From Eubacteriales bacterium mix99 (GTDB lineage: Bacteria; Bacillota; Clostridia; Caldicoprobacterales; DTU083), in NCBI GenBank assembly GCA_038396605.1, contig CP121690.1, forward strand, positions 434,001-498,000: a DNA stretch of 64,000 nucleotides, written 5' to 3'. The position numbers and the translations under genes are program-made. Shown piece by piece: positions 1-6,935 of this stretch (position 1 is the first letter of the stretch; the number at the start of each line of letters is the position of its first letter). The notes beneath the pieces were generated by a model. It saw only the letters and a program-made list of their open reading frames with translations, had not been told where the DNA came from and searched no databases.

Positions 1-200
1 ATATAATTTTATTAAAGGTTGAGATAAAAAGAAAAATTCAGCAGAAAGGAGTGCAGGATAAAATGATCAACGCAAAAAATGAGCTGGAGGGCCTATGCTT
101 CTGAACTGAATATTGGACTTCAGGGTCGTTTTTTGATGCCTTTGAAGTCGTATCTTTGCAACCATCATCTATTGATCACGGATAATTTTTTTGTCAGCAC
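1..200. other. Leading non-coding stretch without a recognised gene
   Basis: No convincing gene lies here. A 13-codon frame starts at 64 behind an AAAGGAG about 11 bases upstream, but its product resembles nothing I know. An inverted repeat GACTTCA (116-122) / TGAAGTC (143-149) could fold into a hairpin. The stretch is probably the 3' untranslated part of a transcript entering from outside the window, since it ends in two terminators. Confidence 0.4.
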
Positions 201-2727: not shown

Positions 2728-4539
2728 TCAGCCAACCAGCTGGCTGTTGTCCTGCAGATCCTTCTCCAGACTGTTCTGTATGGACCAGATCCGCTGATAC
2801 AGGCCGGGCTGATGAATTAATTCCTCATGGGTGCCGGACTGAATCAGCCGCCCGTCGTCCAGGACCAGGATCCGGTCTGCTTCAGACAGGGTTGCAATCC
2901 GGTGGGATATGATAAAGGTTGTAACATCCTTGCTTCTTTTCTTCAATTCCTTCCGGATCGCGGCGTCGGTCTCCGTATCCACCGCACTGAGGGAATCGTC
3001 AAAGATCAGGATATCGCTGTCCTGGATCAACGTCCTTGCAATGGCCACCCTCTGCTTCTGCCCGCCGGACAGGGTAACGCCTTTTTCCCCCACAAAGGTT
3101 TCGTACCCGTCGTCAAATTCCTCGATCACCTTATGAACGGAAGCAATGCGGCTGGCTTCATAAATCTCCATTTCGCTGACATTCCGCTTGGCAATGCCGA
3201 TATTCTCCTTAATGGTGCGGGAAAACAGGAACGGCTCCTGCAGAACAATGCCCACCTTCTGACGCAGCCACTTCCTGTCAATCTTCCGCAGCTCCACCCC
3301 GCCTATGGTGACGGATCCGCCTTTATAGTCATACAGCCTCTGCAGCAGATGAACCAGGGAGGATTTCCCCGAACCGGTGGGGCCCAGAATGGCAACCGTT
3401 TCCCCTTTCTTCACTTCAAAGGAAAGATCCTTCAGAACCGGATGTCCCCCTTCATATTCAAAACTGACATTCCGGAATACGATATTCCCGGCAATGGACG
3501 GCCTCCCGCAACCCGGGTCCTGACTTTCTGAAGGAACATCCAGGATCTCCTGGATCCGGCCCACAGACACCAGGGTTTTGCCCATGTCGGTCAAAATCCG
3601 GCCCATCTGGCGTATGGGCCAGAGAAGCATATTCACATAGGAACTGAACACCAGAAAGGTGCCCAGTGTAATGGAACCTGTCGCAGTATAATAAACGCCC
3701 ATTACAACGACAATGCCGATCTGCAGCATGGCAATCAGATCCGACAGGGACCAGTACAGGGCCATCAGATTCGTAACTCGAAAGGACAAGTCCCTGTATT
3801 CCGTATTTTTCTGATCAAACTTTTCATTCTCATAGGCCTGACGCCCAAAGGCCCGGACGACCCTCACCCCGTTCAGATTTTCCTGAATCGTATTGGACAA
3901 CCTTCCCTCGGATTCATCCGCCTGCAGAAAGGCTTTCTGAACCATCCGGAAAAAGATGAAGGAAAAGAGAAAGAGAACCGGAGCAACGGCAAGGGAAACA
4001 ATGGTCATGCGTACATTCATGGAAAGCATGATGGCAATCGCCATAACCAGCATAAACAGGGCACGGCCCACGTCCACCAGCTGCACCGCCAGAAAACGGC
4101 GGATGGTCTCCATATCGGAGGTGCAGCGCTGAATCAGATCCCCGGTCTCCGCCTTGACATGATAGTCATAGTCCAGGCTCTGCAAATGGCCGTACAGCCG
4201 GTCCCGCAGACTTTTCGCTATGGACTCCGAAGCCCGGGCGGACCATTTGCCCCTGAAAAAGACAAACAGGCCATTGATCAGATTGATGCCAAGCAGCACC
4301 AAAGCGCAGATCCACATATTGCGTTTCAAATAGTCCATGCCTCCGATGGACCGTAGAAGACCGGCAATCCGGGCAGACAGATCCGCTGGTTCCTTTCCGA
4401 TCACGGAGTCCACGGTAAACCGAACAATCAGCGGGGATATCATTGAGAGGAAGGTGGATATCCCGACACACAAAATGGATCCAACATACAGCAGACGGCT
4501 CCCCTTCATAAAGCTCATCAGCAGTTTCATGTTTTTCAT
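2728..4539 (-). CDS. ABC exporter half-transporter with degenerate ATPase site (BmrC/BmrD-like)
   Basis: This 603-residue transporter has the layout MKNMKLLMSFMKG, membrane domain, then a nucleotide-binding domain from about residue 360. Walker A is 'GPTGSGKSS', the signature is 'LSGGQKQ', and Walker B ends 'IFDDSLSAVD', so Asp515 replaces the catalytic Glu. It should pair with the next gene. The frame is open well upstream of 4539, but I place the start at 4539 (ATG ATG-rich start behind AGGAA at 4551-4555) because the upstream residues are unlike any exporter and coincide with terminator hairpins in the leader. Transcription probably passes through the attenuator described at 4575-4740. Confidence 0.9.
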   Translation of the reverse strand: MKNMKLLMSFMKGSRLLYVGSILCVGISTFLSMISPLIVRFTVDSVIGKEPADLSARIAGLLRSIGGMDYLKRNMWICALVLLGINLINGLFVFFRGKWSARASESIAKSLRDRLYGHLQSLDYDYHVKAETGDLIQRCTSDMETIRRFLAVQLVDVGRALFMLVMAIAIMLSMNVRMTIVSLAVAPVLFLFSFIFFRMVQKAFLQADESEGRLSNTIQENLNGVRVVRAFGRQAYENEKFDQKNTEYRDLSFRVTNLMALYWSLSDLIAMLQIGIVVVMGVYYTATGSITLGTFLVFSSYVNMLLWPIRQMGRILTDMGKTLVSVGRIQEILDVPSESQDPGCGRPSIAGNIVFRNVSFEYEGGHPVLKDLSFEVKKGETVAILGPTGSGKSSLVHLLQRLYDYKGGSVTIGGVELRKIDRKWLRQKVGIVLQEPFLFSRTIKENIGIAKRNVSEMEIYEASRIASVHKVIEEFDDGYETFVGEKGVTLSGGQKQRVAIARTLIQDSDILIFDDSLSAVDTETDAAIRKELKKRSKDVTTFIISHRIATLSEADRILVLDDGRLIQSGTHEELIHQPGLYQRIWSIQNSLEKDLQDNSQLVG

Positions 4540-4574
4540 GTAGTTGTCACTTCCTGTTTTTAATCTGTGTGGAT

Positions 4575-4740
4575 GGCTTTTATAGCATAAAAAAGCCACA
4601 GGGCCTGATCCTCCCATGGCTTCTGCGAAATGGTATTTCTCACGGCAGCGCATCGTTGCATGGCTGCCCATACATCTTTCTGCAAAAAGCCACAGGGCTC
4701 TCCACTGCAGTCCCATGGCTTTTCCTTGTCAAAAAGCAAA
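4575..4740 (-). promoter_or_regulatory. Tandem attenuator: two near-identical terminator hairpins plus competing folds
   Basis: Read on the minus strand, AAAAGCCATGGG pairs with CCCTGTGGCTTTTT (hairpin 1, 4684-4723), and the same arms recur about 100 bases later (hairpin 2, 4589-4622). Both end in T tracts pointing at the exporter. Three GGCTTTT-like blocks (4732-4737, 4684-4691, 4589-4598) alternate with three AAAAGCC-like blocks (4717-4723, 4617-4622, 4575-4581). Hairpin 1 could therefore be disrupted by an upstream GCTTTT/AAAAGC pairing (4718-4737), and hairpin 2 by the downstream pairing 4575-4597. Together with the leader peptide this resembles the bmrB-bmrCD attenuator of Bacillus subtilis. 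The regulatory role is inferred. Confidence 0.7.
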
Positions 4741-4758
4741 ACCGGCAATCGTAAGAGA

Positions 4759-4890
4759 TTATCCGATCCAGGAACATATGGAGAAAGGAAAAGAGTATGC
4801 AGGAATTCCGGCATCAGAACTGTCATACGTATCGGCAGAAACATCAGCAGTCCATCCTGTCATTCGAAACTTCATGCGGTTCATCCTCAT
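4759..4890 (-). CDS. Leader peptide (43 residues) of the ABC exporter operon
   Basis: An ATG at 4890 follows a near-ideal ribosome site (AAAGGAGG, centred at 4900-4906) by nine bases and opens a 43-codon frame that stops at 4759, about 35 bases before the first terminator hairpin. The peptide is Met- and Arg-rich at its start (MRMNRMKFRM) and aromatic at its end (AYSFPFSICSWIG). It has no similarity I recognise. Its position between promoter and tandem terminators suggests a translated sensor: ribosome stalling, for instance by an antibiotic, would change which hairpin forms. It is too short for usual gene finders. Confidence 0.65.
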   Translation of the reverse strand: MRMNRMKFRMTGWTADVSADTYDSSDAGIPAYSFPFSICSWIG

Positions 4891-4983
4891 CTCCAGGTTC
4901 CTCCTTTTCCTTGAAATTTTCAATAGAATTTACACACTTTCATAAAGCAATGATAACAAGTTTCCATGCACTTTCCAGATATC

Positions 4984-5012
4984 AGTATACGATGTCCGCC
5001 GGGGAAAAGCAA
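4984..5012 (-). promoter_or_regulatory. Sigma-A promoter for the exporter leader
   Basis: On the minus strand TTGCTT (5007-5012) and TATACT (4984-4989) are separated by exactly 17 bases. Transcription would start near 4977, about 87 bases before the leader peptide and about 440 bases before the exporter start. Confidence 0.7.
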
Positions 5013-5141: not shown

Positions 5142-5291
5142 CAGGTAAGAACCATTCGGATCATGCAGCTTCCCCGGATATCTGAATTTTCACAGAAACA
5201 GCCACACCCCTTTACAGGGATGTGGAAACGTTACGGAAGGAAAAGCACAAAGGCTGCAGATCCGGCATACAAAAAAGGAGGCCCTGACAAA

Positions 5292-6935
5292 ATGAGTGAA
5301 AAGATTTGTCCTTCCCATGCAGAAAACTCCAATGTAAAAGGATTCCTGCACACCCGCGGGCAGAAAATTGTAAACGGATCCGGAGACAGGATCCTGCTGA
5401 CCGGCTGGGGATTGGGAAACTGGTTATTGCCCGAAGGGTATATGTGGCTTGCGGGGGACGGAAACCGCTTTGACCGGCCAAGAAGAATCGAAGCCGTCAT
5501 CCGGGAACTGACCGGTCCGGACTATGCAGCTGCTTTCTGGAAACAATACCGGGAAAATTATGTGACACGGGAAGATATCGCCTTCATGGCGGATCTTGGT
5601 TACAATTCGGTAAGAATTCCCATAAACTGGAGGATCCTGATGGAGGAAGGCCCGGGCTGTATCTGGAAGGAAGATGGTTTTGCGCGGATCGACCGCTGCC
5701 TGGATTGGTGTGAGGAATTCAAATTATACGCATTTCTGGACCTGCACGGCGCTCCGGGCGGCCAGACAGGCGCAAACATTGATGACTCCATTGACGATAT
5801 TCCCCGGTTATTCACCGATGAGGACAGCAGAACCAAATGTCTGGAGCTTTGGAAAGAGATCGCCCGGCGTTACAGGGACCGGTGGATTGTAGGCGGTTAT
5901 GACCTGCTCAATGAGCCCCTGTCGCCGGTCCATGGCAGGGAATATGCATTGAATCCGCTGGCGCCCGCCCTATCCGTATTCTACGAGGAACTGATTGCTG
6001 AAATCCGGAAAACAGATACCAGACATATGCTTTCCATGGAAGGTTCCCAATGGGCCACCGATCCATCCATATTCTTTAAGAAATACGACGGGAACATGGT
6101 GATCCATTTCCATCGGTATGCCTGTAAACCGGGCATGGAGGCCTTGCAGCCTTTTCTGGAGTATTCCGAACGGCTGGATCAGCCGCTATGGCTGGGAGAA
6201 ACAGGGGAAAACACTCTGGAATGGTATACTGCTATGTATCCTCTGTGCAGCTCCCTGGGAATCGGTTTCAATCTCTGGCCATGGAAAAAAATGGACTGTA
6301 CAAATTCCCCCTGCTCAGTGAACAAACCGGAAGGATGGGATGAAATCATTCAATATACGCATGGAGCAAAGCATCCCGGTACCGAACGGACAAGAAAGAT
6401 ACTGGACGAATTTCTGCAGAATATCCGTATTTCACACTGCAGGTGGAATCCCGATGTCACGAATGCTGTCTTTCGCCGGCCGGACTGCAGCGTACGCGCC
6501 ACGGACTTTAACCTGGTGCCCGGAAAGGGTATTTCCTGCAGCGGTTTCCGAACTGAGGGCAATCTGTATCATTATCAGACAAGGACCGGGATGGCAATTG
6601 TTGCTGCAGAAAAGCAGCCCGTTCCGCGAAGATTTGCCTTCGACAGCGGATGGGATCTGCTGGCTCTGGAAATGCGGCAGGGAGAATTTGCAACGTATTC
6701 TATCAATGAAGTACCGGAAGGCTGCACCGTCCGTGTTGAGCTGTTATGCAGGGAACCTGCACAGATTTGCTTCACGCAGGACAGCAAAACGGTCCGGACG
6801 TTCACCCCGGAACCGGCCATGCAGCCGCAGACACTTTTTGCATGCAGACTTTCCGAAGCAAAAAGATCCCTTGTCAAAATTCATGTATTGAGCGGATCGC
6901 TCCGGTTCTTCCGACTGATTTTTCAAAAGGACTGA
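5292..6935 (+). CDS. Glycoside hydrolase family 5 protein, cytoplasmic
   Basis: This 547-residue protein has a GH5 (clan A, TIM-barrel) catalytic domain over roughly residues 20-370. Typical landmarks are 'LGYNSVRIPINW', 'FLDLHGAPGGQTG', the acid/base motif 'LLNEP' with Glu208, 'VIHFHRYA', and the nucleophile motif 'WLGETGE' with Glu303. The C-terminal 150 residues look like a beta-rich accessory domain that I cannot name. There is no signal peptide, so it probably cleaves imported beta-linked oligosaccharides. I start it at 5292, where AAGGAGG precedes the ATG; the frame is open further upstream but has no ribosome site. The exact substrate (glucan, mannan or xyloglucan fragments) cannot be told. 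Confidence 0.85.
   Translation: MSEKICPSHAENSNVKGFLHTRGQKIVNGSGDRILLTGWGLGNWLLPEGYMWLAGDGNRFDRPRRIEAVIRELTGPDYAAAFWKQYRENYVTREDIAFMADLGYNSVRIPINWRILMEEGPGCIWKEDGFARIDRCLDWCEEFKLYAFLDLHGAPGGQTGANIDDSIDDIPRLFTDEDSRTKCLELWKEIARRYRDRWIVGGYDLLNEPLSPVHGREYALNPLAPALSVFYEELIAEIRKTDTRHMLSMEGSQWATDPSIFFKKYDGNMVIHFHRYACKPGMEALQPFLEYSERLDQPLWLGETGENTLEWYTAMYPLCSSLGIGFNLWPWKKMDCTNSPCSVNKPEGWDEIIQYTHGAKHPGTERTRKILDEFLQNIRISHCRWNPDVTNAVFRRPDCSVRATDFNLVPGKGISCSGFRTEGNLYHYQTRTGMAIVAAEKQPVPRRFAFDSGWDLLALEMRQGEFATYSINEVPEGCTVRVELLCREPAQICFTQDSKTVRTFTPEPAMQPQTLFACRLSEAKRSLVKIHVLSGSLRFFRLIFQKD

Follow-up and report, generated by a model that had tools for sequence, protein, structure and literature searches.

A short ORF followed by two nearly identical terminators stands upstream of a two-gene ABC exporter in a 64,000-nucleotide stretch (hereafter the window) of the 3.13-Mb single-contig genome of Eubacteriales bacterium mix99, and the question raised by this arrangement is how a leader with two terminators could stay inducible. 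An initial annotation of this DNA had proposed ribosome-mediated attenuation, as in bmrCD of Bacillus subtilis, with the second terminator either tightening the off state or answering a second stalling position. The leader ORF, the pairings of its segments and the folds computed with a ribosome masking part of the RNA support, in silico, an attenuator of this kind upstream of a BmrCD-type exporter, and we lean, with moderate confidence, towards a ribosome-mediated transcription attenuator whose six segments are chained in the order S-Z-A1-B1-A2-B2.

Organization of the locus

The elements follow one another on the minus strand as promoter, 43-codon leader ORF, terminator T1, terminator T2 and two ABC exporter half-transporters. 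The promoter TTGCTT-17-TATACT is read from the sequence at 5012-4984, with an expected transcript start at about 4977; the leader ORF, of 43 codons plus stop, runs from the ATG at 4890 to the TAA at 4759 (MRMNRMKFRMTGWTADVSADTYDSSDAGIPAYSFPFSICSWIG), its start being preceded by the strong ribosome site AAAAGGAGGAACCTGGAG; and the two near-identical terminator hairpins lie at 4723-4685 (T1) and 4623-4590 (T2). These three features had all been put forward in the initial annotation and are present, so arranged that a translatable ORF with its ribosome site lies between promoter and terminator. Both terminators start beyond the stop codon of the ORF, and a single terminator within the ORF, of the bmrB type, was not found here.

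Segment S (4910-4891, minus strand) is the Shine-Dalgarno region of the leader ORF and can pair, according to pairing statistics, with segment Z (4792-4768, minus strand), which comprises codons 33-41 (SFPFSICSW) and which, in the fold with a ribosome at the start, can pair instead with A1 and the T1 loop. From folds and alignment, T1 consists of A1 (4723-4712), a loop (4711-4698) and B1 (4697-4685), with the arms AAAAGCCATGGG/CCCTGTGGCTTTT, and T2 of A2 (4623-4613) and B2 (4603-4590), with the arms GAAGCCATGGG/CCCTGTGGCTTTTT; alignment and covariation give B1 as the alternative partner of A2. Two further hairpins are predicted on the same strand. One, past the stop codon (4737-4718, GCTTTTT/GGAAAAGC), competes with A1 and is, read by eye, shorter by one base in the genus-mate G001, the exporter contig of which gave 93% identity. 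The other lies in the spacer between T1 and T2 (4668-4644, GGCAGC/GCTGCC); in the genus-mate it reads, again by eye, AGCGGC/GTTGCT, so that one pair has changed on both sides and two others on one side only, to G-U.

Three GGCTTTT-like blocks alternating with three AAAAGCC-like blocks had also been described, as a source of mutually exclusive folds. The mutually exclusive folds hold, while the triple alternation is only partly right: the first GGCTTTT-like block belongs to the post-stop hairpin, and the third AAAAGCC block (4581-4575) was rejected as an antiterminator, being placed past the second U-tract, too late for termination, and reading AGGAGCC in the genus-mate. Also rejected was a 94-codon overlapping ORF which extends beyond both terminators, its frame being broken by indels in the comparison with the genus-mate. 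On the other side of the promoter, a divergent ORF for a glycoside hydrolase of family 5 (cellulase) occupies 5163-6935 of the plus strand and starts at most a few hundred bases from the leader promoter.

The two exporter subunits are encoded on the minus strand at 2728-4539 (subunit 1) and 767-2593 (subunit 2), and both carry the Pfam domains PF00664 (ABC_membrane) and PF00005 (ABC_tran). Walker B reads DD in subunit 1 and DE in subunit 2, a pattern which we take to be that of heterodimeric exporters with one degenerate site. Sequence matches in the PDB include TM_0288 for both subunits, together with YheI (BmrC) for subunit 1 and YheH (BmrD) for subunit 2, the top matches for both being ABCB1 and its kin, so that YheI and YheH are not the best by sequence. 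Pfam and PDB matches together identify a heterodimeric ABC exporter of the BmrCD type downstream of the leader.

The pairing of the two terminators is unusual within the window. A loose scan gave 424 terminator-like hairpins on both strands, among which T1 and T2 are the sole adjacent pair at most 200 bases apart sharing at least 7 bases of 3' arm and U-tract; in fact, they share 13 identical bases across this region. A generic hairpin scan did not report T1 and T2 as such, giving just a 5-bp hairpin that overlaps the 3' arm of T2. The folding of the entire leader beats 99 of 100 dinucleotide shuffles. Eighteen of 21 relatives have a promoter of the form TTGNNN-16..18-TA[TA]ANT within 160 bases upstream of the leader, where mononucleotide shuffles gave 1.7 on average; one of the misses (L019) has only 23 bases of upstream DNA. 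A covariance model of the T1-T2 region, R1, was built from 23 sequences, that of the window included; in its own genome it gives a single match at E up to 0.1, and a second copy of the element in the same genome was consequently discarded.

Distribution among exporter relatives

The upstream DNA of 59 exporter relatives was inspected (L053 and L063 were without usable upstream DNA, and L010, L023 and L030 were left out). Fewer than 200 bases were available in five of the 59 (L012, L021, L054, L061 and L073), and 18 named genomes together with L013-L016 were first judged by a stem finder, only L013 and L015 of these being also inspected as sequence. With this scope, conservation in relatives, which had been proposed as a check, was found for the hairpins: leader position and both tandem terminators upstream of the exporter are kept in 24 of the 59 relatives, belonging to five families (f1, 6/7; f3, 6/6; f23, 8/8; f24, 1/1; f48, 3/3). 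L005, the one f1 member where the pair was not seen, gives a weak match to R1 upstream of the exporter (E 0.079). Tandem terminators were not seen in families f2 (6 members), f9 (4), f42 (3), f43 (1) and f70 (1), nor in the 18 named genomes, 14 of which have one terminator after a leader ORF; the single f18 member was ambiguous in this respect, and no leader was seen upstream of the exporter in L013-L016, L056 and L062. Of 391 genomes of the class, 50 contained R1 matches at E up to 0.01; out of 14 match loci inspected, L117 and L123 lie upstream of the same exporter, others being upstream of other genes or chance-like.

Some related arrangements were observed in passing. Five loci (L119, L120, L121, L124 and L128) have the same pairing between ribosome site and ORF end and two hairpins, no downstream exporter ORF being recognised in the available DNA, and in L119 the S:Z helix is the two-sided variant GGUUGUG/CACAACC. 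Upstream of the exporter, the rumen clostridia L025-L029, L031-L033, L037 and L042 encode a short leader peptide, 20-25 residues long and CR-rich at its end (e.g. ACRRHG), followed about 18-28 bases past the leader stop by a single GC-rich hairpin.

A proposed chain of alternative pairings

The mechanism proposed for the six segments would run as follows. With no ribosome on the leader, S would pair with Z and T1 (A1:B1) would form, stopping transcription, with T2 (A2:B2) next in line. If a ribosome came to a halt within the first two thirds of the leader, as would be expected with translation-inhibiting antibiotics, it would mask S and leave Z free; Z would then pair with A1 and the T1 loop, and the released B1 would pair with A2, so that both terminators would fail and the exporter would be made. 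A ribosome reaching about codon 34 would mask Z and let T1 re-form. The likely logic is read-through with early-stalled ribosomes and termination with absent or finishing ones. Beyond this, it is tentatively proposed that one ribosome may set off a domino of six alternately pairing segments, in which a single stall opens two consecutive terminators and B1, the 3' arm of T1, provides the second antiterminator; this would account for the terminators being near-copies.

All six segments are carried by 21 leaders, for which the duplex energies of pairs from the same species were compared with those of segments permuted among species. The neighbouring pairs S:Z (-19.2 for own pairs, -13.2 across families) and Z:A1 (-19.4 and -13.5) were matched by none of 20000 permutations, and B1:A2 (-16.3 and -13.6) by one; with permutation restricted to within families the counts became 0, 3 and 742 of 20000, respectively. 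Among the control pairs of non-neighbours, S:A2 was equalled by 19477 and S:B1 by 13694 of 20000, while Z:A2 also beats most permutations (203 as good, or 7270 within families) and is not a clean negative. In the leader of the window (L003), Z:A1, at -20.1, is not better than letter shuffles (-20.6), and S:Z, at -17.5, is slightly better (-15.2). When codons were shuffled, S:Z was equalled by at most 10 of 200 shuffles (5% or fewer) in 28 of 34 leaders, these being the 21 and 13 others; the misses are the window (40 of 200), L004 (11), L009 (26), L018 (12), L070 (19) and L071 (22). The S:Z helices themselves differ, with two-sided changes between genera, e.g. GGUCGUG/CACGACC, GGUCGCG/CGCGGCC, GGUUGUG/CACAACC and GGGGCGUAUA/UAUACGUUCC. 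Mutually exclusive anti-antiterminator, antiterminator and terminator are thus found for the leader set, S:Z and Z:A1 in the window alone not being clearly above shuffles.

The second half of the chain has to be weighed against a plainer reading, in which the ribosome acts on T1 alone, T2, as a tandem copy, does no more than tighten the off state, and the complementarity of B1 to A2 is a by-product of copying. The pair A1:B2 was chosen as the control, because simple duplication should give it a complementarity equal to that of B1:A2. In the alignment of 23 sequences, T1 is paired in 96.5% of cells and T2 in 92.7%. Covariation of the leader in relatives, which had been suggested as a check, was borne out for T2, whose score is higher than in any of 500 shuffles, and for B1:A2, where the percentage paired (91.5%), the score and the number of cells with two-sided change (17) are each above all 500 shuffles, with no excess of pairs with two-sided change (85/500) or of pair types (479/500). 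The control A1:B2 is paired in 88.4% (148/500) and its covariation score was reached by 102 of 500 shuffles, a difference from B1:A2 which speaks against a mere by-product of copying.

In family f3, moreover, the terminators are no longer copies, and A1:B2 has been lost (mean -2.6 kcal/mol) with B1:A2 kept (-8.0). Over the whole set of 23 sequences B1:A2 exceeds A1:B2 in stability in 16, equals it in 2 and is weaker in 5 (Wilcoxon p 0.046, a value that ignores kinship). This contrast stems from f1, f3 and f24. It is mixed in f23 and reversed in f48, so that these two families do not favour B1:A2 over A1:B2, as the copy reading would have it. The same reading gains from the window and its genus-mate, where the cores of T1 and T2 are equal: in L003 and L004 all four arm combinations are equivalent, and therefore the window itself is silent on B1:A2 versus A1:B2 and its genome alone cannot discriminate. 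Against it may be set that a T2 which could not be opened would hold the gene off. Taken over the leader set, we consider a redundant T2 rather unlikely, and the data are better explained by terminators linked via the B1:A2 pairing, with ribosome site and ORF end forming part of the switch.

Predicted effect of ribosome position

The folds were computed at equilibrium, on transcripts ended just past each terminator and with everything up to the ribosome front omitted, the sequences being related to one another; an early ribosome means free RNA from 16 or 30 bases past the start codon, or from mid-ORF. For the 21 leaders the mean probability of T1 is 0.95 without ribosome and falls to 0.48 with an early one, a level that none of 60 null sets reached, against 0.87 for codon-shuffled ORFs. 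This switching is found at no more than 3 of 60 codon shuffles in 12 of the 21, the window's included, and no early-ribosome switching was seen in the folds of seven (L018, L055, L057, L059, L064, L069 and L072). Ribosome position thus alters the predicted formation of the terminator, in silico.

In the window, T1 has a probability of 0.99 without ribosome, and a ribosome at the start takes T1 to 0.00 and T2 to 0.02, B1:A2 and Z:A1 then forming about 13 and 14 bp, respectively. Tested at every third codon, T1 stays at or below 0.09 for ribosomes at codons 1-31 and returns to 0.82-0.98 at codons 34-37 in transcripts ending at the U-tract, the value at codon 34 being 0.04 with three extra bases. 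The scan shows this one early zone of T1 suppression, and the two stalling positions that had been suggested were not borne out. At codons 40-43 T1 falls again to 0.01-0.30, because of the post-stop hairpin. In the genus-mate T1 takes values between 0.01 and 0.90 for codons 1-31, and of at least 0.88 from codon 34 onward. A clean early switching-off is thus predicted for the window and an uneven one for the genus-mate, the late return of T1 being clean in the genus-mate and not in the window. In L008, L069 and L072 a ribosome at the stop codon would itself obstruct T1.

The link to T2 is the weakest part of the evidence. Mean P(T2) in the 21 leaders is nearly flat over ribosome position (0.68 without ribosome, against 0.58 for one at the start and 0.60 for one at the stop), which again suits a redundant T2. 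With A1 and B1 both omitted as paired the mean is 0.98; with A1 alone removed, T2 falls below 0.5 in only 7 of the 21, a further point for redundancy, and the window keeps 0.97, because release of B1 there needs Z to cover the T1 loop too. In the window transcribed to T2 without a ribosome, equilibrium favours B1:A2 (T2 0.18), and therefore T1 has to act first if the off state is to hold there. What the computations show is the six segments, how these are conserved among a set of relatives, and a predicted T1 that switches with the ribosome; for the linked switch to work in the cell, real ribosomes and drugs would have to act in this way and B1 would have to reach A2 before T2 closes, and the inducer would presumably be an antibiotic.

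Leader peptide

The leader ORF of the genus-mate is open and without indels. Seven codons have changed between the two genus members, six of them non-synonymously, a result which goes against a conserved leader peptide, and peptide conservation was set aside as the chief signal, not being seen for the leader of the window. That the peptide is distinct is supported, the window's being unlike those of relatives. The fixed Z motifs were scanned in 31 leaders: CACGRCC or its variants fall in frame 1 in 11 leaders, frame 2 in 3 and frame 0 in 2 (the last two looking like one lineage), and for the five-base motif GTTCC/GTCCC the counts are 3 leaders in frame 1, 2 in frame 2 and 1 in frame 0. It seems that this end of the ORF is conserved for its RNA, because a peptide motif would hold its frame and the bases of the Z core occur in all three.

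These data bear on a sequence-specific arrest peptide, in which a drug or a nascent-chain motif would stall the ribosome at a fixed leader codon. Recurrent C-terminal ends fit such a peptide, namely (A/L/T)RP in f23 and f48, PPxCSK in f42 and ACR-like ends in the rumen relatives, but the peptide of the window is without them and 6 of its 43 residues differ in the genus-mate, with one silent change, whereas another leader that these two genomes share is identical in 27 of 27 residues, also with one silent change. Together with the three frames of the Z core, this leaves a fixed arrest motif improbable. A ligand-binding riboswitch or a protein-binding leader with no need of translation, which the conserved alternative hairpins upstream of a transporter would suit, is hardly credible, considering that Rfam gave no match in the window at the gathering score nor in seven loci up to E 0.5, that by eye no conserved block was noticed beyond the named segments, and that the ribosome site is itself one arm of the switch.

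The leader used for contrast lies outside the window (L130, G000:C1:867579-867659, minus strand, grouped with L129, L125 and L126; MYFTDRLTRKLSSVQSIPMKHCAEYSV, identical in the genus-mate) and is followed, by eye, by two terminator-like hairpins and then by an ABC-F-like ATPase. Two distant genomes have a related motif, SVQxxPMKHCxEYS, in a leader ahead of a MATE-like efflux gene (by eye). Elsewhere, a PP pair near the leader C-terminus in L034, L036, L065, L068 and L071 (LRPPVVC, LRPPAAC, FMPPACSK, FQPPVCSK and FPPPVCSK, respectively) marks possible stall sites.

Comparison with known systems

The comparisons below follow the accessible portions of the cited papers. The bmrB leader of bmrCD in B. 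subtilis needs translation, is induced by lincomycin, erythromycin and chloramphenicol, and has a leader ORF, a terminator with predicted antiterminator and anti-antiterminator (the role of the latter being called unclear) and a heterodimeric ABC exporter downstream, as found here; nevertheless, its one terminator lies within the ORF, whereas here two lie beyond it and B1 would be part of the second antiterminator (PMC4191407). In vmlR of the same species the anti-antiterminator cannot form when a ribosome has stalled on the uORF; the antiterminator then forms in its place and termination fails, which is the logic proposed here, but with a three-codon uORF, one transcription terminator, an ABC-F gene and a further hairpin hiding the ribosome site of the gene (PMC9226507). 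The clostridial case, cplR of Clostridioides difficile, likewise has a uORF-controlled terminator and answers lincomycin and retapamulin; unlike the present leader, it has a three-codon uORF (MRI), a single terminator that also hides the ribosome site of the gene, and an ABC-F gene (PMC10201436). Rli53 and Rli59 of Listeria are antibiotic-responsive attenuators as well, Rli59 lying upstream of the ABC transporter gene lmo1652 and answering several translation inhibitors; tandem terminators are not mentioned for them in the accessible part of a review (PMC8079631).

Two attenuators within one leader are known from mgtCBR of Salmonella, where two ORFs answer two signals (ATP and proline) independently, while here one ORF would serve linked terminators (PMC3641672). 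The mefA/msrD macrolide-resistance operon also has two ribosome-mediated attenuators, each with its own leader peptide and a different gene downstream, and at msrDL it is the stalled ribosome that stands in the way of the terminator (PMC10314930). A second tandem terminator in an attenuated leader is reported for rimP in some Gammaproteobacteria (PMC2965389). The accessible part of one survey held nothing matching the leader of the window (PMC11109978), and literature searches made mainly outside subscription papers found no description of one leader ORF with linked tandem terminators.

If true, the proposed switch would show how an attenuator gains a second terminator and yet stays inducible, and would provide a rule for recognising linked terminators, namely that B1 must pair with A2. 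It would also point to a set of clostridial exporter leaders, here without an Rfam match, which are probably antibiotic-responsive. The kind of switch is the one known from bmrB, vmlR, cplR and Rli53/Rli59, and the linked second terminator is what differs.
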